This document shows positions 3,655-48,585 of a stretch of DNA of 64,000 bases, one piece after another. The position numbers and the translations under genes were made by a program. The stretch is from assembly GCA_918797485.1 (NCBI GenBank), contig CAKKNE010000002.1, forward strand, positions 3,686,501-3,750,500, written 5' to 3'. This DNA is from Pelagomonas calceolata. Taxonomy: Eukaryota > Sar > Pelagophyceae > Pelagomonadales > Pelagomonadaceae. The stretch's first letter is position 1. Each line of letters starts with the position of its first letter. The notes beneath the pieces are model-generated. The model had not been told where the DNA came from. It did no database searches and worked only from the letters and a program-made list of their open reading frames with translations.

Positions 3655-3762
3655 CACTAGCCCCCTCTTATTCTCCTCTATAGTCCCACCTTGACGTAAT
3701 GAAGGTTCACACCCCACTCATACATAGTGCTAGTATTACACGCCGGCGGGGAGTCACTAGCG
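3655..3762 (+). repeat. Dispersed repeat family R2, copy 1
   Basis: About 108 bp (tagtcccaccttgacgtaat then gaaggtt) recurring as the reverse complement at 36262-36369 with roughly 85 percent identity by eye. One copy lies in each compositional half of the window. Confidence 0.7.
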
Positions 3763-11852: not shown

Positions 11853-13034
11853 TAAATACAACTTGGTGCAACTGGGATTTTTTAAAATCGCCCAGTAGCC
11901 GTCACTTGGCAGTGAAGGCGCTGGGCACTCGGATCTTGGCGCTGGGCAAGACTCGCCAAAAGATAATGACGCCGAGTTTGTGCTATATGCCACTGGAGAC
12001 CCCGGAGTCGTCGAGATAGCCTGAGCCCCACTGGCATTGACGTGTACTGCCTCTAATGTCGTGTCGGTGCCGTGCAACATCTCGCACGCGACAGCTCAGG
12101 CTGATAAGGACGGTTCTCATTGAATCTACCCACTTAATAACTTGAACACATGCGATGCATAGGGAAATAGAATGTGTAGCTCCGGACTTTCCCGGCAGCG
12201 TAGTGTAGTCGTCTAACGAAATAGTTTCTCCCATGTTTGATGGGGTTTGTGACGGGGAATTGCGTCCGTCAATAAAAGTGACTCAGGATGATAATAGTTA
12301 GGAGTGAGAGGCGACTTCCCCCTACTAAGGGGATATCGGAGTACCCTAGGATGGGAAGTAGCCTAGGCGAGTAATACAAGTACGGGTTGTAGTGTGGCCA
12401 ACCATATTGCGACCCTCCTCTTTCGTGTTTTCGGCTGGTGATTTAGTCTCCTGAGGGTCCTTAGGTACCTGTTCCGTGGAGCTGATGCGCAAACGAGATC
12501 ATCTAGCTTGATGGGGTGTCAAAAATATCGCCCGGCGCCGCACAAAACGCCACTGACGGGGCAGTCCGGGGCCCCTAAAATCCCCTTGTGTCGAAAGGTG
12601 GGAGTAGACGTAAGTAAGGAACCTTAGTTCATAAAAATCCGAGGGTGGGCTATGTATTTAACGCGCTATGCCAGTGCCTGTCAAAATCTGGCGTTCCCCC
12701 CACTTGCAGGCCCCATGTCCTCCTAGGCCATTTCAAATTTGGCGCAAAGGCCCTAATCCCATTAAAGTTTACACCTTATGACGCAAAGGTCCACACTTGC
12801 CGCTTAGCCGCGGGGACTCGGAAGCGAAGCGGCAAGATGCGGGCCTTCGCATCCTCTGTCCTAGGTGGATTTGTAAATTTATTATTCAAATTCGCAGGCT
12901 TCAAAAATTTCGAGGGCTGGGCCAAAAACATGATCTATTATGATTGGGGCCTGCGGTGAGTATTCCCCGGAATGTTTTCCCATTGGCCCAGTCCAGAGTC
13001 TCGAATTTGCGAGTATGCTTACATTGGCTTGTAT
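11853..13034. other. Intergenic region between convergent genes
   Basis: Apart from repeat R1 at 12151-12390, nothing was recognised. A 104-codon frame at 12645-12959 has no protein-like features and is not called. Confidence 0.55.
12151..12390 (+). repeat. Dispersed repeat family R1, copy 1
   Basis: About 240 bp that recurs as the reverse complement at 28586-28841 with very high identity by eye (for example ggggatatcggagtacccta is shared). Copy 2 carries about 16 extra bases near one end. There is no coding capacity. The pair brackets TRRAP and DRC5 in opposite orientations, so recombination between the copies could invert that block. Confidence 0.8.
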
Positions 13035-28585: not shown

Positions 28586-28841
28586 ACAACCCGTACTTGT
28601 ATTACCCGCCTAGGCTACTTCCCATCCTAGGGTACTCCGATATCCCCTTAGTAGGGGGGAGTCGCCTCTCACTCCTAACTAGTTTCATCCTGGGTCACTT
28701 TTATTGACGGACGCAATTCCCCGTCACAAACCCCATCAAACATTGGGAGAAACTATTTCGTTAGACGACTACACTACGCTGCCGGGGAAGTCCGGAGCTA
28801 CACACTCTATTTCCCCGGGCCTCAGGCTATCATGCATCGCA
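28586..28841 (-). repeat. Dispersed repeat family R1, copy 2
   Basis: Reverse-complement partner of 12151-12390. Divergence by eye is only a few percent apart from one indel near atgcatcgc, which suggests recent movement or gene conversion. Confidence 0.8.
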
Positions 28842-32405: not shown

Positions 32406-33366
32406 ATGGATGGCAGCCGCAAGCGAGCGTGGACGCCCGCCGAGGACGAAAAGCTACGGACCGCGGTCGCGGTGGGCCCCGTGAAGTGGGCGAGCGTCGC
32501 GCAGGCCGTCGGCACGCGCAACGCGAAGCAGTGTCGGGAGCGGTGGCACTATAACCTCAACCCCGAAATAAAGAAGGGCCGCTGGACCGCGGAGGAGGAC
32601 GCGCTCATCGCTGCGCTGCCACACGGCGACTGGGCGAGGGTCGCCAAGGCGCTCCCGGGCCGCACCGACATGGCGATCAAGAACCGCTACCACACGCTCT
32701 CAAAGCGCAAGCGCTCGGCCGCGCGCCCCGGGGCCGGCGGGAGCGCGCCGGCGGCCGCACGCGCGGCCAAGCGGGGCCGCGGCGCCCCGCGCGTATTGCC
32801 GCCGCCGCCGCCGCGGGCGGCGCCGCCGCGCACATCGCCGCCGCGCGTCGCGCGCGGCGGCCCCGCGCGATCGACGTCGAGCCCCGAGCTCTCGGCGCTC
32901 TGCGACGTCGCCGGCGGTGCAGAATTCAACCAGTGGTCCGCGCCGACCGAGGATGGGAGATTTACACGTCACCTTTCCACACAATCGGCCTATTCGAACT
33001 CATTTGATTTCCGCACAGGTCGCCGGTGTTGCACTGGGCGACGACGCCGCACGGCCGGAGTCCTGCTCGCCCGAGCTTCTCCGCGTCTGGGCCCGCGCGG
33101 CCGACCTCGGCACGCCGGAGCCCCCGGAGCACCGGCGCGCCGCGTCGGCCGCGTCGGCGCTCTCGGCGCTGAGCCGCGCGACGACTGCGCGGCTTACGCC
33201 AGTTGCGCCGTGCGGCGGGCCTTTGAGCTCGCCCGAGCTCGGCGCCGCCTTCGGTGTGCTCCCACCCCCACCTAGTCCTCCGAGACTCCCACCTAGCGCG
33301 GCGACGGCTGGCGCAGACGTCGCGCACGGCTATTTGCAACGCGAGGGCGCCGGCGGCCCGGGGTAG
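32406..33366 (+). CDS. R2R3-type Myb transcription factor (2 exons)
   Basis: Nuclear DNA-binding protein. Exons 32406-32906 and 33019-33366 give 282 aa. Repeat one at about residues 7-55 (RAWTPAEDEKLRTAV, then CRERWHYNLNP) and repeat two at about 58-103 (KGRWTAEEDALIAALP, then NRYHTL) each keep the spaced tryptophans of Myb repeats. The tail is basic, proline- and alanine-rich with no recognised domain. The 112-nt intron 32907-33018 is a decayed introner element: the target GTCGCCGG is present at both borders, the 5' end cggtgcagaattcaaccagt is a mutated form of the element end, and the 3' end is gatttccgcacag. Splicing from the first target copy to the element AG restores LCD-VAGVALGDD exactly. 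Confidence 0.9.
32915..33018 (+). mobile_element. Introner element copy, decayed (Myb intron)
   Basis: 104 bp between perfect 8-bp duplications GTCGCCGG (32907-32914 and 33019-33026). Both ends differ from the 13-bp consensus; the internal hairpin of longer copies is missing. It is in sense orientation relative to the gene. Confidence 0.8.
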
Positions 33367-34636
33367 TGGCCACACCGCTATAATGTCCGTCAGCTCAGCC
33401 TGGAGTCAATTGTTCTTCATTGTTCCTAGGAGCTCGTGCGAAGCCCGTCGACTCGGAGCTAGTAGCCGCTGCACGTCTAGGACCCAGGGCTCGATGTAAT
33501 AGCGCCGACGTCCCCGTCACGTATTGAGCTCATGCCTTGTATTAAAAGAAGAGTAGCTTATTCCTGGCAAGGCCCGTTCATTTTATCCCTCAGGCGCTAG
33601 GCTCTCAAAAATCATTGGCCCTCGGCGTAGGGAGGAGGCTATAAACTTCGCGTAGGGAGGAGGCCTTTAGAGGCTTGGTGTATGTCCTTTTCCACTAGGA
33701 TATTCCTTCATGCCTTGGTACTTGCCTCGACGCGCCTGCACGTATCAAAGGCCCGACGGGCAGCTTGTGCCCATCCGCTTTTGGCTCACATCAAAAAGAA
33801 CCCAACACCGCAATTCGGGACAGGGTCTAGGTTCCCATCACCCCGTAGGCCCCACCCCACCCCAAGTCGGGTAATTCTTTCTTGTAAGATTTTGACGCAT
33901 ACTCCATGAGTCCTAATTAAGATAAATTACCCTGTGAATCTTAATACTGCGTTGAGACTTCGAATTTTATAGGGGGTTAAGCGCACCCGTCGACGTTGAT
34001 TTTGCGCAATGTCGCGACAGCCACGCGCCGAATGGCGGGAAATTTTTGCTGAGGCGCAGGTTCCGTATGCTAAAATAATGGGCTGTGCGCAATTTGGTAC
34101 CATGCGGGCGACCGCGACCACTGCGATAAAACCCGAACCCGAACCCAAAATCGCCCTGAGACTTATAAATTGAACCATAATTACGAAAAAATTATTTCCT
34201 AACGTTCCATATCTATATAGGGCTCTAAGGGATTTTCCTCCTTTTGGCTAGGCCGAATCACCCCGATGAAAAAGTTGCGCGTAAGAATAAAAAATTAATT
34301 ACCTTGCTTAAGAGCTAGGCCGCCTTCGGGGGCTGCAAGACCGAACGCCCGTGACGTACTTTTTTTATGTATGCACGAAAAACAAGGGTAAAGTTTTTTT
34401 AGACGCACCCTGCGGGCGCATCGAAAAAACCGTGACCTTACCCAAAAGGGCCCGGGATGCGTGATTGTCCCGCAGCCCCTCTTTTCCCCGACGTCGAACT
34501 AAGATTTCGGGGAGAACACGGGGAGACTCGAGTTAGAGAAGCTCTCGGGTGACCAGAGGGGTGATTCACTAAGTGATTCACTGGGGCCGCCCGGGAAGGG
34601 GCCAAATCGGCGTTCTTATTAGCAATACGGGCTACC
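33367..34636. other. Intergenic region with repeats
   Basis: Positions 33636-33700 hold a direct duplication of cgtagggaggaggc. Positions 33709-33780 repeat 153-231. The remainder (33900-34560) is of mixed composition with no coding signal. Confidence 0.55.
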
Positions 34637-35811
34637 TTACTTCACCCGCAGGCTCTTGGCCCGTTCGATGGTGGCGAAGAGCCCGTTCGTGTGGACGGCG
34701 GACGTGTTCCCGGCGCGCGGGCAGAACGGCGGTCCGGGCGGGGCCTTGCCTAGCGTCGAAAGGCCGACAGTCAAATCATCGGCGCCGCGCGGGACGCCGC
34801 GCTTCAAGTATGGATTGCGCCAATGCTCGACAAACGGCGCGCCGTCGTTCGCCCCGCGACGGTACGGCGCCGGGCGCACCCGGCCGCAGGAGAAATCTGC
34901 GGCGCCGACCTGTGTGGAAATCAAAATTGTTCGTGCTGAATCATCGCGATTTCCACACAGGCGCCAACGAAGCCGGCGCGCGCCACGCGCGCGGCGAGCC
35001 GCTCGGCGTCTCGCGGCGCGTCGAAAGGCGCGGCGGCGCGGAGCGACGCGGCGCTCGAGGGCGGCGGCTCCGCGTAGCGGCGGCGGCTGAGCGCGAGCGC
35101 GCCCCGGACCCCGGCGCGGAGGTGGGTCTCCATGGTCGCGCCGCGCGCGGTGGGCGCGCTCCGCGGGTCGAACACGGGGGCGGCGTAGACGCCCGGCGCG
35201 CTCGCGGTCGACACGAGGTGGTGCAGATGCCGCGCGGCCGCGGCGAGCGCCCCGGCGCGCCGCGCGTCGTCGGCGGCCTGGTCGTCCAGCTCTCTCGCGG
35301 CGCGCCGCTGGTCGAGGCGCTCGCGGAGCGCCTCGCCCGTCGCGACGACTGCCTCGACGTAGCGCCGCCGGGCACGGAAGTCGTGTCGGTAGCGCCGCGA
35401 GTAGAACCCGCGGAACGTCCGCTGCGCGAGCGTGGCGTGGTAGTGGTAAATGGCGCGCGCCTCGCGCCGCGCGCGGGCCGCGCGGCGCGCCGCCGCGAGC
35501 TTCCGGGCCACGACGCCACGGTGCACCCGCTGGACCGCGATCGTCGCGCTCGTCAACGCCGCTATCCAGCTCCGGACGCGCTGGCCGCGCCAGAGTCGCT
35601 GGACGCGATCCAGCTCCGTACCCTGGTGCGCTCGATCGTGAAGGGGTCCGGACCGCGCCCGTGCGAGGGGTGCGTTCGTCGCGGACACGCACGTTGTACC
35701 AGTGAAGCCCGCGACGACGTGGCAGGCGAGCTTGTCGAAGGCCTCAGCCATCTCGCAAAGGCTTGGAAGGCGCAGGCGACCGATGTGGTGGCTCCGTTGT
35801 ATATGATACAT
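34637..35811 (-). CDS. SPATA17: SPATA17-like IQ-motif protein (2 exons)
   Basis: Calmodulin-binding protein of the axoneme family. Exons 35811-34969 and 34909-34637 give 371 aa (human 361). IQ motifs at about residues 65-140 include RVQRLWRGQRVRSWI, AVQRVHRGVVARKL and AQRTFRGFYSRRYRHDFRAR, followed by the family pattern RRYVEAVVATGEALRERL and then HLHHLVSTASAPGVYAAPVF, which matches SPATA17. The C-terminal exon carries VEHWRNPYLKRG. The intron (34910-34968, 59 nt) is a minimal introner element; its donor GTTGGCGC is the duplicated target, and the other copy, GTCGGCGC, differs by one base. Splicing gives ARAGF-VGAADF. The start could also be the later in-frame ATG in CEMAEAF. Confidence 0.87.
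34910..34960 (-). mobile_element. Introner element, minimal 51-bp copy (SPATA17 intron)
   Basis: Both 13-bp ends, CTGTGTGGAAATC and GATTTCCACACAG, are perfect and only 25 bp lie between them. The interior matches the first 45 bp of the 203-bp copies, so it is an internal-deletion derivative. Flanking 8-mers are gcgccgac and gcgccaac. Confidence 0.92.
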
Positions 35812-35853
35812 ATCTAAATAAATAAATAAATAAATAAAATGTAGAGAAACCTA

Positions 35854-35876
35854 CTAGCGGCCTGTAAGACACTAGC
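35854..35876. promoter_or_regulatory. GTAAGACACTAGC motif upstream of SPATA17
   Basis: ctagcggcct then gtaagacactagc, ending 43 bp from the first base motif-to-ATG upstream of the SPATA17 start (35811, minus strand). Confidence 0.5.
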
Positions 35877-36261
35877 ATACTCTATAGTTAGCCGCCCCCG
35901 AAGAAGACTACACCCCTCAGTCGGCGGCAGACGCCACGGCCGGCGGTTGCACGTGCTCGACCCACTGTTTTTGCAGTAGACATTCGGCGGTGCCTCTCAT
36001 AATTTCGTCTCCGCGAACTTCCCGACAGCGTAGTCGGCTCCACCCCGAATAATAAATCAGACGAGCCGCCCAAACGTCTCGCGAAGCGCGATCTGCTGGC
36101 CGCGGGCGCGGTAGGCAGCCACGCACCGCGCTTTGCTCTGAGAGTCGAGCCTTCGCGAGCGCCGCGCCGGTGGCCCGCGCGGACGACGGGCCACGATTCA
36201 GAAACATGATAATGGGCCGGACTCACGCTGCATGAGATGCAGGACGCGACCGTGTCGCGCC

Positions 36262-36369
36262 GCGCTAAGTGACTCCCCGTGTAATACTAGCACTAAGAAT
36301 GAATGTGGTGTAAACCTTCATTACGTCAAGGTGGGACTAAGTAGGAGAGTAAGAGGGGCCTAGTGTAGT
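36262..36369 (-). repeat. Dispersed repeat family R2, copy 2
   Basis: Reverse complement of 3655-3762: the shared core ttacgtcaaggtgggacta and both flanks align with scattered differences. Confidence 0.7.
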
Positions 36370-37804
36370 ACTAGGGGGTATATTCTTCGCACAGTGAGCC
36401 TGAGTATACAACAGTAATACTTATCTAGTAGCCCTAGTCTTCTGGCTCCTAGCTAAACAGCTATAGTATATTTATGTGCTTACGTACACGCTCGCGGGGG
36501 ATAGGTCCCCCGTCCCCCCTAGTACCTACGGTAGGGGGGAATAAGGAATAAAGACTAGAGGTGTCTCCACAACTAGGGCATCTTGGCGCGACGCTAAGCG
36601 CCGTGCGAATTCCTGTCTTAAATGACGTGTAGGCGCGGCGTTTAGGAGTGCTGAAGGTCGGGGATTGACCTACTAGGCTTCGAGGTGTTTTGGCCCAACA
36701 GTCTTTGCCAGGCGCTGCCCCGCGTTTTTGCCCGCGGGAGGGCAGCTGTCGGGGCGGTGGGCCATGGCCGTCCAGCGGCGCCTCGACGCCATCGCCGCGA
36801 TGCGCGAAGGCGGACGCGCCCCCGTCATATGTCTGCTGGACCAAGATCCACCATCCCAAGTGGCCGAGCTGGGAGCCGGGCGTTGGGCTGGAGATAGATC
36901 TACGAGGCGCCCGGGCGCGGAGTACGCCATGGGCGACGTTCGTACGCAGCTAGGTCGTCCCGATGATCTGTTGTTGCTCGCGCGGCCGTCGCGGCGCCGC
37001 GAGACGTTTCGGCGCCGACCGCGTTCTCGTGGTAGCGGCGCCCTCACGTTGTCCTTGATGCTGGGACTTACCTTGGTTTCGTTTTATTCGATTTTCATGA
37101 CCTGCTCTTCTATCTTTCCCCTCCACATTTCATATCAGCCACTGTTGGGTTTCAGCCTGATCAAACCCAGCCTCCTGCCTCGAGAATTGGTCCCGTGCGC
37201 CCTTAACTTTGCTCAGAGCAGTGTTTCACCGCTGGAAACGACTCCTGGCGGCCTCACGACGCCGCGACGACCACGCATAACACCTTCAGAGGGCTACCAG
37301 ACCTCTGCAAAAGCTATTTGGCGTTGCGCGCGCTACGGCCCGCCGTCGCGCGAACAGGTGCAACTTACGCGCCCCGACGCGACCTCACGCAGCCAGACGT
37401 CGCGCGCGTTCCGCGGTTTGAGCTTCACAACACCTCACGGCCGCACACGCCGTCGCCGCGCCGCGCCGTCGCCGCAAACGGCGTTAATCCAGCACGACCG
37501 AGCAACGCCTCGCGACGGGCGGAACGGACCCGGAAGCTGATTTGTGGTGGTTCCCGTCGGCTCGCCGGTCCTAGTGACCCATGCGGGTGTCGAAAGGGGT
37601 CGACTTGCTCAGGGGGCCTTGAAGCGCGCGGTTGTGCTGGTGGGTGCGTGCGTGCCCCGCCGCGGTCCCGTAGCGCCGCTCGACTACGGTCGCGCGGTCG
37701 CGGTCGGCTGCTGTTCGTGCGCGCCACGTGTCCATGAATAATAAACAATTAACGAAGGAATTTCCTAAAGGAAAAAGGACATTCACGAAGCCAGAAACGA
37801 TACC

Positions 37805-38080
37805 TTAGACGTCCCGCTCCGAGCGCCAGTACGCGAGGACCTTCCAGAAGAGGACGTCCGGCAGCAGGCCGTCTCGACCGAAGAGGCCCGTGGAGCGAGG
37901 GACAACACGTAGTTGTAGGCTGTCAAAATGGATTTTCTATGTTCCTCGCCTTCGAGCTTCAAATATCCAGAGTATACGTCTCGCCGCATCTGCAGGGCTT
38001 CCTCGAGCCGTCCGAGCGATTGATACGTGCACGCAAGATTGCCCTGCGCGGTGAGTAGGTTGCGTGGCACGCGCAGCCAC
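37805..38080 (-). pseudogene. TPR (kinesin-light-chain-like) fragment with WKVLAYWR tail
   Basis: The minus strand reads NLLTAQGNLACTYQSLGRLE then EALQMRRDVYSGYLKLEGEE and TAYNYVLSL, a TPR type that I recall as highly amplified in pelagophyte genomes. It then breaks off; in another frame, just downstream, GLFGRDGLLPDVLFWKVLAY then WRSERDV and a stop at 37805 match the C-terminal tail of the ankyrin protein at 62310. No GT-AG pair in the short gap joins the frames correctly, so a frameshift or a fused relic is more likely than an intact gene. No upstream TPR exons were found. Confidence 0.5.
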
Positions 38081-38229
38081 GAATACACTAGGGCATTATG
38101 ATGTAAAAACAATTTAAGCTGCAAGTCCAATTGAACGCCGAGGAAGAGTCGTGCTCACGCTTGTGGACAGGTCGGCAGAGCCCTCGAGGCGTTGCTCGAG
38201 TTCGACCGGCGGCCCGCCGCGTCGCGTCC

Positions 38230-38736
38230 CATTTTGCACGCTGTGAGATTGACGCGTACACGCGGCGCCGGTGCGAGGCCGCGGAGGAATCGAGGAGGGA
38301 GCTCGAGGCCCGCCTCGCGGACTTCACTGTGAATGGGCGCGGCGGCGAGGAGCTCCAGCGGTGCAAGAAGGAGCGCAAGGTGCTGATCCGGGCCGTCCGG
38401 GAGCTCAGGCGAAGGGTCCGGAAGCTGCGCGAGGCGGACCGCAAGGCCGACGCCGTGTCGGCCTACTGGGGGTCGGGCCAGGAGCCCGTCGTCCCCTCCA
38501 CGCAACGCGCCGACGACGACTGGATCGAGGTCTACCTAAAGGAGCTCCACGTGTCCGACGACGAGGACGAGGCGCCGCCTGCACCACCGCCTTCACTACC
38601 GCGGGACGGGGACGCCTTCGACGCCGCGGCGGCGGCGGCGCGGGGCACGGCGGCGGCGGCGGCGCGCTTCGTGCGCGCGCGGCTGCCGGCGCCCTCGCCT
38701 CCCGGGTCGCGGGAGCCGCGGGTCGAGGCCATTTAA
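38230..38736 (+). CDS. Coiled-coil protein, 5' end unresolved
   Basis: A GC-rich frame ends at a TAA at 38736. It reads FARCEIDAYTRRRCEAAEES then RRELEARLADF, a basic coiled coil (CKKERKVLIRAVRELRRRVR), an acidic patch (DDEDEAPP) and an alanine tract. No in-frame ATG exists back to 38131, so at least one upstream exon is missing; a different frame just upstream (VGRALEALLEFDRRP at about 38173-38215) may belong to it. No family was recognised. Confidence 0.45.
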   Translation, partial: HFARCEIDAYTRRRCEAAEESRRELEARLADFTVNGRGGEELQRCKKERKVLIRAVRELRRRVRKLREADRKADAVSAYWGSGQEPVVPSTQRADDDWIEVYLKELHVSDDEDEAPPAPPPSLPRDGDAFDAAAAAARGTAAAAARFVRARLPAPSPPGSREPRVEAI

Positions 38737-39285
38737 GTTAGGGTGTTGTTTGTTGTTTACTTCTCGTATGTAGTTCGCGAGAGTGGTCTGCAGGGAGATG
38801 TCCGGTGCGCCAAAGCGCGCCGCGGCATAGAACACTGAGCCTCTTGCACGGACGACGCGTCCTCGTAATGGTCTCGTCGCCGCCAGAAGGCGGGATCCCG
38901 CCCGGCGCTGTTTCGAGGAGTAGTAGCTGCTGCGGGGAGTGAATAGTCTGTCTGTGAGGAACCACTGAGGATGAACGCGGCCTCGCTCGTCGCGCCGGAC
39001 TGCGAGGTGCCTAGCGGGCCCGAGAGCAGTAGGTCTAGAGGAAGGGAGAGGTGCTTCCGGGCGCGGTAGACGGCTCTGGTTACGCTTCGATGATTGCGTG
39101 CGGGTACAAGCCTTTTTCAGCGGCTTGGTTTTGGCAGCACGGCCCCACCTGTGCATAGTTTTTGACAGCTATTAGAATAGTTGCAAAACGTGTACTTCAA
39201 GCAAGCCATCCATCAGGCGGATGCGCGGGCGGACTGCCCTGAACTATAGGTCGTAGGTCTTCAACATAAAAGGCATCGGCCAAAA
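38737..39285. other. Intergenic region
   Basis: Mixed-composition spacer before PRORP. Minus-strand ORFs here are arginine-rich shadows or lack coding features. Nothing was recognised. Confidence 0.5.
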
Positions 39286-40925
39286 ATGACATCTCAGCGG
39301 TCGCACGAAGACACGAACTGGCGGGCGGCCCTCGAGGAATACCGGGCGGCGAAGGACCGCGCGGCCGGCGCGTTCCGTCCCGACGCGAAGACGTGCGCAG
39401 ATCTCCTCGCGCGCGTCGCCGGTGTCGTGCGCAAAGGGCGCAGCAGCCCCGCGGGCCACGACGATGCCACGCAGCGCGCGGCGGCGGCGCGTGAGATAGT
39501 GGACGCCCCGCGTGGAACTTGGTTTCTCGGCGCCGACGCAGCCGCGCGGCAGACATCGGGAGGAGGGTGCAAGGGCGCCGCGACGTCCGACGTCCGCGCA
39601 GGTGGACGACCTGGAGCGGTCGGACGTCGCGACGACGGAGGCGACGTACGCGCTCCTCGCGCGCGCGTGCGCCGCAGCCGGGGACGCGGACGCCGCGACT
39701 GCCGCGCTCGCGCGCGCGCGGGCGGCGCACGTCGCTGTCCGGCGCCGCGCGTACGCGCCCGTGCTGGCGCTGCGCTGCGCCCGGGGCGAGCTGGACCGGG
39801 CGCTCGCGCTCGCGCGCGACGCGGCGGCGGGGGGCGTCGCCCTGGGCGCGGCGGACCATGCGGCGCTCCTCGCCTGCGCGGGCGGCGCGGGGCGGCGCGA
39901 CCGCGTGCCGGACCTGCTCGCCGCGTACGCGCGCGACGTGCCCGTCGCGCCCGCGCCCGAGCCCGCGTGGGGCGCCGTGCTGGCGTGCGCGCCGCGCGCG
40001 TGGCGCGGCGCCCGGTTCGCGCGCGTCGACGCCGCGAGCGGCGCGTGCGGCGCGTGCGGCGCGACGCTCCGCTCCGTGGGAATCGGCGCGGCCGCGCGCC
40101 GAGCGCTCGCGGCGCGCGTCGCGAGCCTCGCGCTCCAGGCGTGCGGCGCCGCGCGCTGGGCGGCCTTCGAGCGGTGGCTGCGCGCTGTGTGGAGAATATT
40201 GCGGAGACCTTCGTGACAACGTCGCGTCGATGGCGTAGAATCTCCACGCCATCGAGAGATGCAGTTAGGGGACGACATCGGGTCGATGGCGCGGGGCGTC
40301 CGAAATTTGATTTCCACACAGGCTGCGCGGGTCAGCGCACGACTGCGTCGTCGACGGCGCGAACGCGGGCTTCGCGGGCGGCGCGCCGGCGCTCGAGCTC
40401 CGGCGCGTCGACGCCGTGGTGCGGGCCTGCGAGCGCCGCGGGCGGCGCGTGCTCGTCGTGCTCCACGCGCGCCACGTCGCCCGCGCGGCGCCGCGCGACC
40501 GGCCGCTGGTGCGCGCCTGGCGGCGCCGGGCGCAGCTGTACGCGTGCGCGGCGGGCGGCAACGACGACTGGTACTGGCTCGCGGCGGCCGTCGCCGCCGG
40601 CGACGCGGGCTGGCTCGTGTCCAACGACGAGATGCGCGACCACCACTTCGGTATGCTCAGCCGGGGGGACTTCCTCCAGTGGAAGGCGCGGACCGTCGTG
40701 AAGTTCGAGATGGACGGCGGGGACGTGGCCCTGGCCCCGCCGCCGCCGTACTCGGAGAGCGCGCAGTTTGACGCGGGTGGGTGGCATGTGCCGGCGCGCG
40801 TGGGGGCGGGCGCCGGCGAGGCATCTGCCGCCACCGTGGTCGTGCGGCGGCCCGCCCCCGGCGCGCTCGCGTGGCTCTGTTGCGCGCCGGCCCGAGCGTT
40901 CGAAGTCAGCAACAAAAGTGAGTAA
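39286..40925 (+). CDS. PRORP: PRORP, protein-only RNase P (3 exons)
   Basis: Endonuclease that matures the 5' ends of tRNAs in organelles or nucleus. Exons 39286-39498, 39602-40176 and 40322-40925 give 463 aa. PPR-like helices occupy about residues 70-205 (TEATYALLARACAAAGDADA). A zinc-site CxxC (C220, C223) is followed by the NYN metallonuclease domain, with VVDGAN (D274) and the signature SNDEMRDHHF (D365, D369). Both introns are introner-derived. Intron 1 (39499-39601) has near-perfect duplicated borders GTGGACGC/GTGGACGA. Intron 2 (40177-40321) has perfect duplicates GCTGCGCG, and exact restoration of the conserved FERWLRG requires a GC-AG junction. The only GT alternative (GTGGCTGC) would delete the conserved tryptophan. 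The N terminus has no obvious transit peptide. Confidence 0.93.
39507..39601 (+). mobile_element. Decayed introner element (PRORP intron 1)
   Basis: 95 bp starting ccgcgtggaac and ending tccgcgcag, both consistent with the consensus ends after A-to-G/T-to-C drift. Flanked by GTGGACGC and GTGGACGA (7 of 8 identical), with GT at the start of the first copy used as donor. Confidence 0.65.
40185..40321 (+). mobile_element. Introner element (PRORP intron 2)
   Basis: 137 bp. It starts ctgtgtggagaat, ends gatttccacacag, and keeps the internal ccacgccatcgag/tcgatggcg hairpin seen in the 203-bp copies. Perfect 8-bp duplications GCTGCGCG at 40177-40184 and 40322-40329. Confidence 0.92.
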
Positions 40926-41177
40926 CCTCTAAAGGTCTACGTAGTAAGGAGCCTGGGAAGGAGGAAGCAGCCCTCGAGCGGTCCGGTCCGGCGCGCTAGT
41001 CACTCTCGTACGGAGACTGAGTCCGAGTCGGAACGCTGGCCATGATTGTCCCCGCCGCCGCCTGGGGCTTCAGGAGGGCTCAGAGACACGGGTTTTCTAA
41101 GCCGTGGACGGCCCAGCCCTCTGCTAAGATAGCTAGCCAACCAGATGGTTTGGTTATCCGCCGCCGGCCCGCGGCGC

Positions 41178-42499
41178 CTACTTGCGGCGCAGGAAGGCGG
41201 GCAGGCCCGCGCGCCGGCGACCGGGCCGCCCCGCCTGCGGCAGGAGCGGCCGGACGTCGACGCCCCCGGAGACGGCCCGCTCGAGCGCCGACGCGGCGAT
41301 GCCCGTGGCCAGCACCGTGATCGACAGCTCGTCGGCCATGCCGTCCTGCACGAGCGCGCCGAAGATGATGTTCGCCTGCGCGGGCGCGACGATGCGGCGC
41401 GACCGCGCCGCGACATCTTGAAGGAGGCGCGGCTGGTCGCGTCCGCGTCGACGTTCTCGTAGATGATCTGCGCCGCGCGGTCGACCTCGGCGAGCGTCAT
41501 CGAGGGCCCGCCCACGATGTTGAACACGATGCCGCGCGCGTTCAGCACGGGCGCCTCGAGGAGCGGCGACGAGATGGCGGCCACGGCCGCGTCCTCCGCG
41601 CGCGACGCGCCCCGCCCCGTGCCGATGCCGATGAGCGCGGCGCCGGCGTCCTGCATGACCGCGCGCACGTCGGCGAAGTCCACGTTGATGAGGCCGGGCT
41701 TGACGATGATCTCGGACACGCCCACGATGCCCTGCCGCAGGACGTCGTCCGCGACCAGGAAGGCGTCCGCGAGCGGCGCGTCGGCCGGCACGATCCCCAG
41801 GAGCTTGTCGTTCGACACGACGATCAGCGTGTCGACGTGGCGCTCGAGCTCCTCGAGCGCCGCCACGGCCTGGCGCGCGCGCTTCCGGCCCTCGAAGCCG
41901 AAGGGCTTCGTCACGACGCCCACGGTCAGCGCGCCCGCGCGCCGCGCCGCCTCGGCCACGACGGGCGCGGCCCCGCTCCCCGTGCCGCCGCCCATGCCCG
42001 CCGTCACGAAGACCAGGTCCGCGCCCCGGACCATCTCCTCGATGTCGGCGCGGCTCTCGACCGCCGCCGCCCGCCCCACCGCGGGCTCGCCGCCCGCGCC
42101 GAGCCCCCGCGTCAGCACGCGCCCGATGTGCAGGCCGGCGCACCGCTCCGCCTTGCCCGCGAGGGCCTGCGCGTCCGTGTTGACGCACCAGAAGTCGACG
42201 CCGCGGACGCCGGCGCCGACCATCCGGTTGACCGCGTTGCAGCCGCCGCCCCCCACGCCGACCACCCGGATGGCGCAGGGCCGTAGCTCCACGGCTCCAC
42301 CGCCCGCGGCCGCGCTCATGATCGGGGAGGTCCGCGTCCGGGCAGAGGCGGAGCTGCTCGCGAGCGGCAAGATCCGGTACCAAGACAACGAAAACGTGCC
42401 AGCCGGGTTCGCGCGGCGCGCCCGGAGATGCGGCGCCTGCAGCGCGCGCGCCGCGGCGGCGAGGAGCAGGAAGTTTTCACATATCCTTGGTGGTCGCAT
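41178..42499 (-). CDS. ftsZ: Plastid division GTPase FtsZ (2 exons)
   Basis: Tubulin-like GTPase that forms the plastid division ring. Exons 42499-41441 and 41375-41178 give 418 aa. Residues 1-30 form a hydrophobic leader (ENFLLLAAAARALQAPHLRA) followed by a Ser/Thr/Arg stretch, as expected for bipartite targeting to a secondary plastid. The FtsZ core starts near residue 75 (IRVVGVGGGGCNAVNRM) and carries the G-loop GGGTGSG at about 170-176, the T7-like IVKPGLINVDFADV and ANIIFGALVQDGMADELSIT. The 65-nt intron (41376-41440) is best read as GC-AG: it joins YENVDAD to ANIIFG, and its borders GCGACCAG/GCGAACAT agree at 6 of 8 positions, hinting at an old introner insertion. The start at 42499 lies 158 bp from the divergent lectin gene. 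Confidence 0.96.
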
Positions 42500-42557
42500 A
42501 GCGGGTTCTAAGGCCGCAACGCAAGGCCTCACACAAGACGCAGGCTGTGCTCCAGTC

Positions 42558-42580
42558 GCTAGTGTCTTAAGGCCGCTAGC
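42558..42580. promoter_or_regulatory. GCTAGTGTCTTA motif between FtsZ and lectin genes
   Basis: gctagtgtcttaa then ggccgctagc, 59 bp upstream of the FtsZ ATG and 78 bp upstream of the lectin ATG, in a 158-bp divergent promoter. Confidence 0.5.
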
Positions 42581-42657
42581 CCGCAAGGGAAGTGGTGCGT
42601 CCGCGGCGGAGAAAAAAAACTCCGTGCGTGATTTTTTTTGAAACCTGAATTCTCTCA

Positions 42658-43446
42658 ATGCGCCTGTTTTTTTTCATGCTGGTGGCGGCGGCGGCATCGG
42701 CGGCGCGCGCCGGCGACGACCTCTCCTTCGCGGCGCCCTTCGACGCCGTCGCGGCGACCGGCGACCGGCAGGTGTCCCCGGCCTGGCGCGCGCACGGGTC
42801 CGCGGCCGTGCACCGCAACTTCGCGCGCCTGACGCCCGACCGCCAGTCCAAGGCGGGCGCGCTCTGGTCCGCGGAGAGCGTCGGCGCGGACCAGGCGACG
42901 CTCGAGCTCACGTTCCGCATCAGCGGCCAGGGGCAGCACTTCTTCGGCGACGGCCTCGCGCTGTGGCTCAGCGCCGACCGCGCCTTCCGGGCGGGCGCGT
43001 TCCACGGCGCGGACCCCCGCTTCGCGGGGGTCGCCGTCGTCGCGGACACGTTCCGCAACGACGAGGCCGCGGCGGCGCACCGCGATCTCGCGCTCGTCGC
43101 GAGCGGCGGGGGCGCCGCGGACGCGGCGGCACTGCTCGAGGGCGCCGCGGGCTGCGACGCGAGCGTGCGCTACCACGAGAACCGCGGCGACTTCTCCGTC
43201 GACCGGAGCTCGCGCGTGCGGCTCGCCGTCGCCGCCGGCGCCGCGACGCTCGCGGTGGACGCGGCCAACGACGGGACCTGGGTCGAGTGCGCGGCGGTCG
43301 CGCTCCCGCCGGCGCTCGACGGCGCGTGGCTGCGGCGCGCGCACGTCGGCGTGACGGCCTCGACGGGGCAGCTCGCCGACAACCACGACGTGCTCGCGCT
43401 GGCCGTGCGGACGGACGGCGCGCCGGCGGCCCCGGCCGCGGACGCC

Positions 43447-43483
<37 letters not shown>

Positions 43484-43935
43484 ACGCGCCGGTCACGGCC
43501 GCGCGCCTCGGCGCCGTCGAGGGGCGGCTCGACGACCTCGTCCGGCGCCTGGAGCACCTGCAGCACCACCTCGAGCACGAGATGGTCAGCGTCGACGACC
43601 ACGTGCGCGTGACGCTCGACAAGCTCGCGCGCCAGGAGGAGCAGAGCGAGGGCCGCATCGACGCGCTCGAGCAGCGCGTCGTCTCGAACGTCGAGGAGTC
43701 GCTGGCCAAGCGGGTCGCGACGCTCGAGCAGGCGACGCGCGACGCCGTGCAGAAGCGCGTCGCGTCCGTCGAGACGCGGTACATGTCGCGGCTGGGCGAC
43801 GTCGTGGCGGAGAAGGTCGAGGGCAGCGGCCGGGGCTGGACCCTCCCCTTCGTCGTGCTGGTGCTCGTGGACGTCGTCGCCTTCGTGCTCGCGCGCGGCT
43901 GGTACGTGCGGTTCAAGAAGAGTCATCTGCTGTGA
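42658..43935 (+). CDS. L-type lectin cargo receptor (ERGIC-53/VIP36-like)
   Basis: Type I membrane lectin that carries glycoproteins from ER to Golgi. A single exon of 425 aa. A signal peptide occupies residues 1-18 (MRLFFFMLVAAAASAARA), the L-type lectin beta-sandwich about 20-245 (LELTFRISGQGQHFFGDGLA with the metal/sugar-site DG, then YHENRGDF), an alanine tract follows, and a coiled coil spans about 280-385 for oligomerisation. A transmembrane helix lies near 397-417 (FVVLVLVDVVAFVLA), with a short cytosolic tail YVRFKKSHLL whose dilysine fits COPI/COPII sorting. ATG 42658 places the signal peptide at the N terminus. It is transcribed divergently from FtsZ. Confidence 0.9.
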
Positions 43936-44848
43936 GGCGCGCGCGGGGTGCATCCATAAAGACTTATGCCTGTTCGCGAAGGCACATCCTCGCCAAGGGC
44001 CAGGCCCTGACAAGCCTGAGGGATATTTTCCATTTTTCAGAGCGGGGAGAAGGCTCTTAGGAGCTTGTTCCTTTTTTTTAGGTCTTCCTTAATTAATTAA
44101 TTAATTAATTTATTTTATTTATTTATTCATCTCTCTCCTACTACAAGTACGACTCGGAATCTTGTTCCTTTTTAGGTTTCTTTCATTTATTATATTATTA
44201 TCAATAATAAGTAACGCGTCCCCTCCGGGTAGCATCAGGCGGAAGCAGCAAGGCCGCTGCGTCCCTCTTTTTCGATCTCTCCTTTTCGTTTCTCCTGGCG
44301 ACGGCACGTCGATGTTTCGTAGCTTCTGAAGGCGTCCTTTCGGAAGGGGCTATTTCCATCAACTTTTTTCTGGCAGCTGTTTTTTTCCCCGATCGTGCAT
44401 TTCTCGTCCGGTGATGTGGCTCTCCTTCTTGGGCTTGGTCGGAACCTTAAGCTCCATGTTAGAGATGATCCTTGACCGTGGTGTTGGGGTAGGTTCATTG
44501 TAGTGAAGCGGTTTTTGGACAATTCTTAAGCTGCTTATACAGGTTGGCAAACTCTGCCGTCTTGTCAGTAATGAATATGGCCACACGGAATGTCAGCTTT
44601 CCCTGCTCTCGTTTCCGTTGATAGTAGTCTTGTGGGGGCCGTTTGTTCGTATGATATGGATCTACATCTTCGGGCCCAGGAACCGCTGCACCCGTCGCAC
44701 CCCATGGGGAGGAGGCCGCGTGAATGCGCGAAGGGCCCGCGCGAGACGCGCGCGTGTGACGGCTCATCCTAAGTGTGACTGACTATATAAATAAATAAAT
44801 AAATAAATAAAGGGGCGCTACCAATATAGGGAGTACCTATACCAAAAA
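43936..44848. other. Intergenic region with repeat R3 and a possible small minus-strand gene
   Basis: Positions 44041-44128 are repeat R3 (plus), with a shorter relative at 44158-44200. Minus-strand frames between 44200 and 44767 contain protein-like text (EDVDPYHTNKRPPQDYYQRK then FRVAIFITDKTAEFANLYKQ; elsewhere MELKVPTKPKKESHITGREM) spread over three frames. Codon use is unlike the GC-rich neighbours. It may be a multi-exon gene or a relic; it was not resolved. An (AAAT)n tract lies at 44787-44812. Confidence 0.4.
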
Positions 44849-46680
44849 TTAATTAGGGGCCTCCCACTGCGTCGCGCCGTCGACCTCTCTAAAGTAGTAT
44901 GGCTGGCCCGACTCGGGGTCCACCATCTCGACCCAGCCGCCCGGGAGCTCCTCGCGGCCCGCGTTGAGCTGCCGGACCGCCTCGGCAGCCTCCTCGGCCT
45001 CCTCCTTGGCCATGGCCTCCTCGAGGCTGAGGACGCGCTCCTCGCCGTCCGAGTCCTCGTACTTGCGCCGCTCGGCCTCGGCCTCGAGCCAGGAGCGCGC
45101 GGCCTCGGCGGCGGCGGCGGCCGCCCGCCGGTCCGCGACCTGTGTGGAAATCGAAATTTTACGGAGCGTTCGTGTTGAATCGTCGCCTCGTCCTCCACGC
45201 CATCGACGCGACGCCTGCTCGATGGCGTGGCGATGTCGGTTCCTCACCGCTCGACGGAGCCAGCGCGGCCACGTCATCGCCGAGAAATGACTTAGTGAAG
45301 AATTATCCGGTGCACCCGACACACTGGTTGATTTCCACACAGTCCGCGACCTGTGTGGAAATCGAAATTTTACGGAGCGTTCGTGTTGAATCGTCGCCTC
45401 GTCCTCCACGCCACGGACGCGACGCCTGCTCGATGGCGTGGCGGTGCCGGTTCCTCACCGCTCGATTGAGCCAGGACGGCCGTGCCATCGCTGAGAAGTG
45501 ACTTAGTGAAGAATTGTCGGGTGCACCCGACACACTGGTTGATTTCCACACAGTCCGCGACGAGCGCCATCGCGAGGTCGGCGGCGTGGCGCCGGACGGA
45601 GTGTCCCCGGTACGCGTTCTGGAGCAGGCGCGCGTACCTGCGCGCCAGCGCGAGCCGGCGGCGCGCGGGGCCCATCCACAGGAACCGGGCCAGCCGCGTG
45701 GCCGTCGCGTGCCGGAAGTTCGCCGCCGCCCGCAGCTGCTCCGCCACGGCGGGGCCGTGCCGGTCGAAGAACTCCGCGGGCGCCTCCCCGAACCGCGTGC
45801 AGGGCGCCTCCATCGCGACGCCCAGCCGCGCCAGCGCCCGCAGGACGCGCACCTTGCCGTGGAACGCGGCGTAGAAGGCCGGCGTGCCGTGGCCGTCCGC
45901 GCCGACGCCGTCGCAGGCGACCGTCAGGTCGACGCCGTCCTCGCGCAGGAAGTCCAGCACCGCGGGCTGGTCGAAGTGCACCGCCAGGTACGCGGGCGTC
46001 AGGCCCAGGTCGTCCGCGCCCTGCAGCCCGCCCGGCAGGTGGCCGCACCGGCGCAGCGCCCGCAGCAGGTCGACGTCGCCCGCCTCGATGAGCTGCGGCA
46101 CGGTCGCGTGGCGGCACGCGTACAGCTCGGGGCCCCGGTACACGTACCGCCGCGCCCGCTCGTCCCAGGGCGGCGCGTACGGCGCCCAGCGGTCGGGCCG
46201 CCGCACGACGCGCCGCATCCGCTCGAGCTCCTCCAGCGAGTGCCGGCCGTGCCACGCGTCCGAGCCGTCGTCGTCGAAGAACGCGAACCGCGGCGGCGGC
46301 GGCGGCGGCGCCGCGGCCGGCGGCGGCGGCGGCGGCTCCGGCGGCGGCGCCAGCAGGAAGGACTCGGGGTCCGGGAACGGATCGTCCTCGACGTAGAGCC
46401 GGTCGGCGTGGCACATGCCGAAGAGGGGCGGGAAGCCGCCGCACCCGTCGTCGGCCCACGCGCCCGTCGCGCGCTTCTCCTCGGCGACCGTGGCCGGCTC
46501 CTCCTCCTTGCCGTGGTACTCGGCCTCGCGCATTTTCTTTTCCCTCTTCTTTCGAGCCGCCTCGCGCTTCTCGCGACGCAGCCGCGCCGACGCCTGCGCG
46601 CGCGTCTCGCCTGGCCGCGCGTCATCCGGCGCGGCCGCGGGCGCCGCGCCGGGCGCCGCCCCGGCCTCAGCGTCCGCCAT
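44849..46680 (-). CDS. Ankyrin-IQ-WW protein (2 exons split by tandem introner elements)
   Basis: Exons 46680-45562 and 45139-44849 give 469 aa. Order: basic coiled stretch (about residues 28-60), proline-rich linker (about 108-130), ankyrin-like repeats at about 195-325 (HATVPQLIEAGDVDLLRALR, GLTPAYLAVHFDQPAVLDFL, GTPAFYAAFHGKVRVLRALA), an IQ-like motif (LLQNAYRGHSVRR), an acidic coiled coil and a C-terminal WW domain (LPGGWVEMVDPESGQPYYF then WEAPN). It probably acts as a protein-interaction scaffold; the exact role is unknown. The intron holds two introner elements in tandem with three copies of the target GTCGCGGA. Removing everything from the first target copy to the last AG joins LAMAL to VADRRA in frame. 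Confidence 0.85.
45140..45342 (-). mobile_element. Introner element copy A (203 bp)
   Basis: Perfect 13-bp inverted ends, flanked by tccgcgac at 45132-45139 and 45343-45350 (plus-strand sense). Contains the ccacgccatcga/tcgatggcgtgg hairpin. Differs from copy B by about 7 percent. In sense orientation relative to the minus-strand gene. Confidence 0.95.
45351..45553 (-). mobile_element. Introner element copy B (203 bp)
   Basis: Abuts copy A, separated only by the shared 8-bp target tccgcgac, and is followed by a third target copy at 45554-45561. Same length and orientation as copy A. Confidence 0.95.
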
Positions 46681-47120
46681 GCCGCCGTTCAACCCACGAC
46701 CTCGATGCCTACTGCCTGTTACGAGAGCAGGTCCTTTATGGAAATCCAGGATCGCCCCAGACGAGGCTTTTGCAGTAGGACGACAAAAGACACCATGTTA
46801 GCAGTCTTCCGGCAGGCATGTCCCCTTCCCCCGCACGCGCGGCGGGCAGCTCCGACATCAAGGTCCAGGGACAAGAAATATGCCCTTGCGCACCCTACTG
46901 GTATATCTCCGGCCAGTACCGTAGGTACATAATAATAATACTTGTAAATAAGATAAATTAAGGAGAGACCTCCTAAAGGATTAAGAAGGGGAAGGAAGTA
47001 TCCTTTGATACAGGTCTCTAGCCCCTTGCCAAAAAGATATAGATACACATCCTCGATTTGGAGAGCGCCGCGGCCGCGGAGGAGAGCGGGAGAGACGGGC
47101 TGCCCGGTGGCCGCGGGACG
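46681..47120. other. Divergent promoter region
   Basis: About 440 bp between the divergent ANK-IQ-WW and SAM-Sel1 genes. Positions 46925-47040 are AT-rich (aataataat and taaattaagg). No ORF or known motif was recognised. Confidence 0.5.
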
Positions 47121-48585
47121 ATGAGCGTCGACCTCGAGGACAAGCTGGCCGCCATGGGCATCATGAACGCCACGGCCTACGCGAAGAAGTTCGCCGAGGA
47201 CGAGTGGACCTGGGAGGCCCTGGTGGGTTGCAGCGACGAAAAGCTCGACGTGCTGGTGCAGCGCGTGGGCATGAAGGAGGGCTCCGCGCTCACGTTCAAG
47301 GGCCGAGTCCGCGACGCGCGCGAGCAGGCGCGGCTCGCGCCGGCGGCGCCCGCTCCCGACGACGCGCACCAGTCCTCGCCCGCGTGGAAATCAACCAGTG
47401 CGTGACGCGGCCGTCCTGGCTCGGTACCGGCATCGCCACGCCATCGAGCGGTGAGGAACCGGCATCGGTCGAGCGATACGCACCGCGTACCGGCGCCGGT
47501 CGCGTATCGAACGCGGTACCGGTCGCCGCCGATGCCGGCATGAGCGCTTCGATGCCGGTATACGTCCCATCGACGGCCGAAGCGTGTGTACCGGTCGAGC
47601 GGTACGCACCTACGAATGGGCATCGGTCGAGCGGCGAGGAACCGGCATCGCCGTCGACGCGACGCCGGAACGCGCCGTGAACTGTTGACGTTCGCGCAGG
47701 TCCGTGCGCGTCCACGGCGCGGCCGCGCGGGAGACGGACGGCGGCCGCTGCTTCGCCGAGGGCTGCCGCTGGCTCTACGGCTTCGGCGAGGGCGTCGACT
47801 ACACCGAGGCGGCGAGCTACCTGAAGCGCGGCGCGCAGCTCGGCCACGCGCTCAGCGCGGCGCACCTCGCGTCGATCCTCATGGAGGGCAAGGGCGTGCG
47901 CGGCAACCCGCGGGCGGCCCAGCTCGAGGCGACGATGTGGGCCATGCGGTCGTGCGACGCCATGGGCCTCAACGACCAGGCGGCCGGCGGCGACGCGGGC
48001 GCGCGGCTCGCGCTCGGGCTGCTGCTCCAGGCGGGCATCGGCTGCGAGATGAACCAGGCGCTGGCCGTGAACCACTTCCGCGCGGCGGCCATGGCGGGCG
48101 ACGCCGTGGCCATGAACTGCCTCGCGGGCGCCGTCGAGGAGGGCCTCGCCCAGGTCGACGAGCCCGACGCGACGGCGGCGGACTGGTACCGCAAGGCCGC
48201 CGAGGCGGGCGTCGTGCAGGCGCAGTCGAACTACGGGCTCGCGCTCATGCAGGGCAAGGGCGTGCCCCGGGACGAGAAGGCCGCCGTCGACTGGTTCGTG
48301 CGCGCGGCCGACCAGGGCGACCCCGACGTGCAGAACTGGCTCGGGCTCTGCTACCAGGACGGGCGCTGCGGCGTGCTCATCGACGACGCCGAGGCGGCGC
48401 GGTGGTACATGCGCGCGGCGGACTCGGGCGACGCCGACGCGCAGGCCGAGCTCGGCGCCATGTACAAGGAGGGGCGGGGCGTCGAGAAGGACGACGAGAA
48501 GGCCCTCGACTACTTCATGACCGCCGCGGACGCGGGCTCGCAGGCCGCGCTGGACGAGCTCCGCAACCGCGGCCTGACGGCCTAG
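47121..48585 (+). CDS. SAM domain plus Sel1 repeats protein (2 exons)
   Basis: Exons 47121-47371 and 47700-48585 give 378 aa. Exon 1 encodes a SAM-like domain (LEDKLAAMGIMNATAYAKKF, then LVQRVGMKEGSALTF). Exon 2 encodes at least six Sel1-type repeats (YTEAASYLKRGAQLGHALSA, AVNHFRAAAMAGDAVAMN, AADWYRKAAEAGVVQAQSNY, AVDWFVRAADQGDPDVQNWL, AARWYMRAADSGDADAQAEL). Sel1 arrays usually act as scaffolds in ER quality control or signalling; the specific job is unknown. The 328-nt intron is an introner element that has grown internally; borders GTCCTCGC/GTCCGTGC differ at two positions, and splicing gives DDAHQ-SVRVHG. It ends 66 bp from the convergent YKT6 stop. Confidence 0.88.
47380..47699 (+). mobile_element. 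Introner element, expanded copy (SAM-Sel1 intron)
   Basis: 320 bp. The 5' end ccgcgtggaaatcaaccagt matches the consensus start with early changes; the 3' end ttcgcgcag has drifted. The interior keeps ccacgccatcgagcggtgag and has local duplications of cggtcgagcg-tacgcacc and gaggaaccggcatcg. Confidence 0.85.

Follow-up and report, generated by a model that had tools for sequence, protein, structure and literature searches.

The 64,000-nt window analysed here is the whole stretch of Pelagomonas calceolata contig CAKKNE010000002.1 from position 3,686,501 to position 3,750,500. It carries six copies of a short element with inverted ends, which lie in five different genes, as the original prediction had stated. 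We propose with high confidence that these copies belong to a family of introners, i.e. non-autonomous DNA transposons of the miniature inverted-repeat transposable element (MITE) type, in which the element supplies the acceptor splice site and the target duplication supplies the donor. The features of the family in the window are the following (window coordinates, strand, description):

32907..33018, plus strand: introner intron of the MYB gene, with the donor GT in target copy GTCGCCGG (32907-32914), a decayed element at 32915-33018 (four end mismatches on the left, one on the right) and the second target copy at 33019-33026.
34910..34968, minus strand: 51-bp introner (34910-34960) with both ends perfect; the donor copy is GTTGGCGC (minus strand, 34961-34968) and the other copy, at 34902-34909, matches it at 7/8 positions.
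40177..40321, plus strand: introner intron of the PRORP (protein-only RNase P) gene, with the donor GC in target copy GCTGCGCG (40177-40184), an element at 40185-40321 (three mismatches in the left end, right end exact) and the second target copy at 40322-40329.
45132..45561, minus strand: tandem pair of introners of 203 bp each (45140-45342 and 45351-45553) with three copies of the target TCCGCGAC (coding strand: GTCGCGGA); the segment predicted to be excised is 45140-45561, 422 nt.
47372..47699, plus strand: decayed introner in a Sel1-repeat gene (element 47380-47699, two end mismatches on the left and five on the right), with donor copy GTCCTCGC and second copy GTCCGTGC, which match at 6/8 positions.

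Reading of the sequence and a search for the ends located all six copies where they had been predicted, at 32915, 34910, 40185, 45140, 45351 and 47380. The claim that the six share 13-bp inverted ends (CTGTGTGGAAATC/GATTTCCACACAG) holds exactly on both sides for 34910, 45140 and 45351, and the ends at 32915, 40185 and 47380 are decayed. Likewise, the claimed 8-bp duplication is complete (8/8) at 32915, 40185, 45140 and 45351, with 7/8 at 34910 and 6/8 at 47380. Since 45140 and 45351 sit at one site with three target copies, the window holds five insertion sites. The MYB and PRORP genes had been mixed up in the original prediction; Pfam scans place the 32915 copy in the MYB gene and the 40185 copy in the PRORP gene. 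A further 'decayed PRORP intron 1' was not confirmed, as the region 39,330-39,640 contained no end within three mismatches and no match to either of two family queries. The copy at 47380 is 320 bp long, and the family interior is still detected in it at 47423-47467 and 47619-47652.

The family extends well beyond the window. We searched the genome (32,445,274 bases in 8 contigs) with the 13-bp ends, as had been suggested, and found them to be abundant; in the sample described below they are tied to 8-bp duplications. The published account of the RCC100 assembly gives six nuclear contigs totalling 32.4 Mb, plus one plastid and one mitochondrial contig (passages of PMC9481584). The exact 13-bp end occurs 1,721 times genome-wide (878 forward, 843 reverse), compared with a single occurrence of the reversed control. 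When the bases that follow the end were included, 565 right arms and 592 left arms were found, and 219 full-length elements have exact ends and measure 176-206 bp. Together with the five window genes, these ends and elements amount to many similar introns in unrelated genes, the pattern expected of introners.

Element structure was examined in a 260-kb sample, made up of the window and 20 further stretches, 18 of which are 10-kb pieces of contig 1 picked for containing exact ends. This sample contained 29 paired-end elements with a duplication of at least 7/8, and the reversed-pattern control gave 0. The elements are 51-204 bp long, with the 34910 copy the shortest, and are thus too short to encode a transposase; they are short, transposase-free and bounded by inverted ends and a duplication of fixed length, as MITEs are. 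The two family queries matched at 39 places, 13 of them outside the 29 paired elements. By eye, at least two subfamilies can be told apart, one combining the left arm AAAATTTTACGG with the right arm AACCAGTGCGTCGGG, the other the left arm AAATTTCGGGCGCCCCACGCC with the right arm AACCAGTGAGTTAGG, and many elements contain inverted copies of CCACGCCATCGA. The shorter copies look like internal deletions.

The length of the target duplication was assessed with the flanks unconditioned, which gave 31 end pairs: 17 matched at 8/8, 11 at 7/8, one at 6/8 and two at 2/8. A match of at least 7/8 at length 8 was therefore present in 28/31, compared with 10/870 for mismatched flank pairs used as a control. 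Allowing at most one base short, other lengths matched in 0/31 (6, 7 and 9-12), 1/31 (4) or 5/31 (5). The duplication is therefore 8 bp.

Next to these duplications, the splice sites follow the coding strand. We assessed 30 sites, namely the 29 elements (the tandem pair counting as one) and two decayed window copies. The coding strand was called by joining the flanks and comparing G+C between codon positions in their open frames, so that the duplication played no part in the call. On this strand the donor target copy begins with GT at 20/30 sites and with GC at 10/30, so that every site has GY (GT or GC), where the phase-weighted expected fraction is 0.195. The coding-strand end of the element is CACAG at 28/30 sites and CGCAG at the remaining 2/30, and both predicted splice sites accordingly lie at the insertion boundary. 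Irrespective of strand calls, the duplication of each of the 29 paired elements carries, on one of the two strands, a terminal GT or GC that reads towards the element, against about 0.31 expected from base composition. Intron phases 0, 1 and 2 are represented by 12, 4 and 14 sites, with no departure from GY availability (p 0.24). Among the genome matches listed (100 per arm order, pooled), the sites unambiguous in sense comprise 76 with GT and 23 with GC. Between a quarter and a third of the donors are thus GC.

These observations suggest how the introners might work. A transposase acting in trans would insert the element at an 8-bp target, which would then be present on both sides. The element would bring the acceptor AG and the duplicated target would bring the donor, mostly GT and otherwise GC. 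Both ends of the element read ...CCACACAG outwards, and therefore either orientation provides an acceptor AG. The spliceosome would remove one target copy together with the element, which would restore the message exactly.

If removal is exact, the joined flanks should encode intact proteins. At 26/30 sites, an element left in the message would cause a frameshift or introduce a stop. A Pfam scan covered 20 of the 30 joined segments, and in 8/20 the junction falls within a domain match (PRORP, zf-CW, XRN_N, PDEase_I, Acyl_transf_3, Pyr_redox_2, FeThRed_B and Spond_N). The PRORP match spans the 40185 junction with an E value of 6.6e-30. At the ferredoxin-thioredoxin reductase junction, which has a GC donor, the joined protein aligns without gaps to chain 1dj7_A. 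Removal of the element hence restores the gene at these domain junctions, and in gapless fashion for the reductase. This introner (L013:642-806) lies in a conserved part of the catalytic chain of the enzyme, and the gene is well suited to testing GC-AG splicing. Together with the 8-bp duplications, the terminal AG and the GY donors, the in-domain junctions and the disruptive effect of retention support the original reading of the family as introners, and we regard them as strong, though indirect, evidence that splicing is exact, also at GC donors.

The elements could instead be ordinary unspliced MITEs within genes, in which case the gene models would be wrong or the genes would be pseudogenes. 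Their ends and 8-bp duplications are indeed those of an ordinary MITE, and 4/30 sites could be read through. However, the donor dinucleotide tracks the coding strand at 30/30 sites, an arrangement that no transposase would produce, and retention would break the gene at 26/30 sites, among them those for ferredoxin-thioredoxin reductase and PRORP. We consider unspliced MITEs very unlikely.

Several observations nevertheless weigh against introners. The 260-kb sample is biased, consisting mostly of 10-kb pieces of one chromosome selected for exact ends, and 2/30 strand calls were made from frames of only 84 and 60 aa. The four sites that could be read through stay in frame without a stop if the element is retained. 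Junctions lie outside any Pfam match in 12/20 segments, and the XRN_N match stops 4 residues past its junction. The 30 sites exclude three end pairs whose duplication is below 7/8, and one of these, L019:2333-2475 (2/8), has no GY start on the coding strand. The other two, L020:6750-6849 (6/8) and L024:4009-4085 (2/8), start with GT on the coding strand. Genome-wide, the 219 full-length elements speak for the donor rule, as a duplication with neither G first nor C last (on one strand) was found at 3 places, where base composition predicts about 103; these 3 places are nevertheless of interest as exceptions. Two of these are at C3:13359 and C6:3895875, on contigs described in passages of PMC9481584 as sharing a 192-kb duplication; at C3:13359 GC is found at the end of the other target copy, and the copies match at 6/8. 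The third, on C4, has no matching duplication either (4/8), which counts against the introner reading. Lastly, searches for the hAT, KDZ, P and MULE families, conducted in six frames and so able to miss intron-split genes, found no partner transposase.

The pair at L024:4009-4085 has an arrangement of its own. Its flanking 8-mers are unlike, both have GT on the minus strand, frames are open on both sides and the phases are compatible. It could be a recombinant of two introners that joins exons of different origin.

Since either orientation can provide an acceptor, we examined which of them are used. In the 30-site sample, 21 elements are right-arm-first, 7 are left-arm-first and 2 are unclear. 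Genome-wide, GY adjoins the right arm in 392/565 cases and the left arm in 322/592. Among the matches listed (100 for each arm), 53 right-arm and 46 left-arm sites are unambiguous in sense, and scaling to the genome gives an estimated ratio of right-arm-first to left-arm-first of about 208:148, roughly 60:40. Splicing in one orientation only was rejected on the basis of these figures (21 vs 7 in the sample, nearer 60:40 in the genome). Introns thus appear to be formed in both orientations, the acceptor end ...AAAATTTTGATTTCCACACAG being favoured. The share of GC donors is higher in left-arm-first (16/46) than in right-arm-first (7/53) sites among the unambiguous matches listed (p 0.016), for which we have no explanation.

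The use of both orientations also bears on an RNA-based mode of spread, in which introns would be reverse spliced into new transcripts and then copied to DNA, as proposed for fungal introner-like elements. In agreement with such a route, the elements are enriched in coding-like sequence: at the loosest threshold it holds 0.93 of the 29 elements and 0.72 of 3,000 randomly chosen positions, and at the strictest 0.79 and 0.49, respectively. Reverse splicing, however, should place copies in the sense orientation only and leave no duplication, whereas the elements have inverted ends, occur in both orientations and are flanked by 8-bp duplications in 28/31 end pairs. This is the least probable of the alternatives that we considered.

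A third alternative is that the GT/GC rule arises from the target preference of the transposase alone, without selection for splicing. A comparison of the donor end with the non-donor end separates target preference from splicing selection, and control sites for these statistics were phase-matched and drawn from the same frames. At the non-donor end, GY is present on the opposite strand at 13/30 sites, more than the expected fraction of 0.198 (p 0.003), which speaks for a preference. The score for GYCNNGRC is 2.23 compared with 1.51 in controls (p 0.00015), a score that was picked after viewing the data. At single positions, C is in excess at 3 and 8 (16 vs 9.6 each), and G at 6 only slightly so (13 vs 10.3). 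The target preference thus looks palindromic and close to GYCNNGRC, and a preference of this kind would supply donors on both strands. There is a precedent in the P-element and hobo motifs, GTCCGGAC and GTNCGNAC, which have 8-bp duplications, start with GT and end with AC (passages of PMC3276498). Therefore, the taste of the transposase for its target may supply donors. However, GY at 13/30 non-donor ends falls far short of 30/30 at donor ends, and splicing, or the survival of spliceable insertions, must act as well. Target preference as the sole cause is, in our judgement, quite unlikely.

The tandem pair at 45140 and 45351 illustrates a consequence of insertion by introners. On the coding strand its order is target-element-target-element-target, and it may be read as a single intron of 422 nt or as two introns that abut at CAG|GT with a zero-length exon between them, both of which are predicted to give an identical message. 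There are 15 differences between the two copies, and 5 changes relative to the six-copy consensus are common to both, 4 of which occur in none of the other four members; each copy is nearer to its partner than to any of those four. Tested separately, the first copy was scored on the opposite coding strand by codon-position G+C, probably because its flank included the other copy. Each insertion would leave a regenerated donor, CAG|GY, at its downstream edge, and tandems such as this one would therefore make zero-length exons open to recursive splicing. More broadly, the family may be a two-way intron by transposase design: a palindromic target would give a donor at both ends and symmetric ends would give CAG at both ends, so that an insertion would be spliceable in either orientation and on either strand, with tolerance of GC at between a quarter and a third of sites and with tandems forming through the CAG|GY left by each insertion. 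We see the case for and against this proposal as evenly balanced.

Candidates for the mobilising transposase were sought across the genome. The KDZ, P and MULE families gave no match, and the control genome gave matches for MULE only; P transposase (PF21787 and PF12017) was matched neither here nor in the control genomes. A hAT mobiliser was rejected, since the single hAT match in the six-frame searches is an element of 3.65 kb whose ends (CAGGGCAGCAGAAGGGCAAG) differ from those of the introners, although it too has an 8-bp duplication of its own. Viral contigs were considered as carriers and gave 0 exact matches to either arm, in a collection that may omit records close to this genome. Six full-length members differ from the consensus at 8-15 of about 203 positions, and 11/31 duplications have one mismatch, indicating that the burst is not fresh. 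It is plausible that the partner transposase is dead or lost.

The rejected hAT transposon (C4:4499549-4503199; L010/L011) has identical 20-bp ends and an 8-bp duplication (TTGCTCGC) whose copies match perfectly. Its frame runs for 721 aa without a stop and contains a hAT dimerisation domain, and the element looks recent. Just upstream of the transposase frame lies a 67-bp stretch (L010:8080-8146) that shares 87% identity with the inner part of the introner consensus, with no recognisable introner ends. It may be a decayed introner lying within the hAT gene, and in that case one transposon could be carried by another.

Two further repeats were noted in the window. An inverted pair of about 230 bp (12162-12390 and 28586-28815) is 96-97% alike and has no introner end within three mismatches; it is another repeat family. 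An inverted pair of 88 nt (3655-3742 and 36278-36365) is 89% alike.

The genome paper for P. calceolata used RNA sequencing (passages of PMC9481584), and the remaining steps are therefore directly testable. The origin of introns is a long-standing question, to which introners are a well-supported answer at genome scale. Elements that land in this way would borrow half an intron from the host gene and so could spread without breaking genes. The P. calceolata family is a clean case, as it has an 8-bp duplication, uses both orientations and spans perfect to near-unrecognisable copies within one window, and its host is an abundant, cultured ocean alga.

The introner mechanism was reportedly worked out in Aureococcus anophagefferens and Micromonas by Huff, Zilberman and Roy in 2016, and in Aureococcus the element is said to bring one splice site and the target duplication the other. 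The Pelagomonas family resembles the Aureococcus introners, which are likewise non-autonomous DNA transposons of a pelagophyte host with inverted ends and a duplicated target. Aureococcus elements have canonical splice motifs (passages of PMC7789003), in contrast to the GC donor at 10/30 Pelagomonas sites. Across 548 introner families, GC donors range from 0 to 50% per family, and some families take the donor from the duplication (passages of PMC9860276). The introners of Symbiodinium microadriaticum, as described there, likewise have inverted ends, an element-borne 3′ splice site and a donor from the duplication, but they belong to a different host and their duplication is 4 bp rather than 8 bp (PMC9860276). 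The Drosophila P-element and hobo share the 8-bp duplication and palindromic targets that start with GT and end with AC (passages of PMC3276498). With its excess at positions 3 (C), 8 (C) and, less clearly, 6 (G), the Pelagomonas motif is nearer that of P than that of hobo as given in those passages; it differs from both in being weaker and in the frequency of GC donors, and no P or related transposase was found by our searches.

A literature search for 'Pelagomonas' and 'introner' together returned PMC9481584 only. Passages of that paper report that P. calceolata intron lengths peak near 210 bp and compare them with the Aureococcus introners, whose length class is also near 210 bp. A full-length element plus one target copy measures 211-212 nt, and the published peak very probably consists of these elements. 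The passages give the length peak and the comparison with Aureococcus only, and the ends, duplications and donors may already be described in Supplementary Note 3 of the same paper. In conclusion, the mechanism is already known from Aureococcus, and the Pelagomonas family appears to be a further case of it, the presence of which had been hinted at in print.

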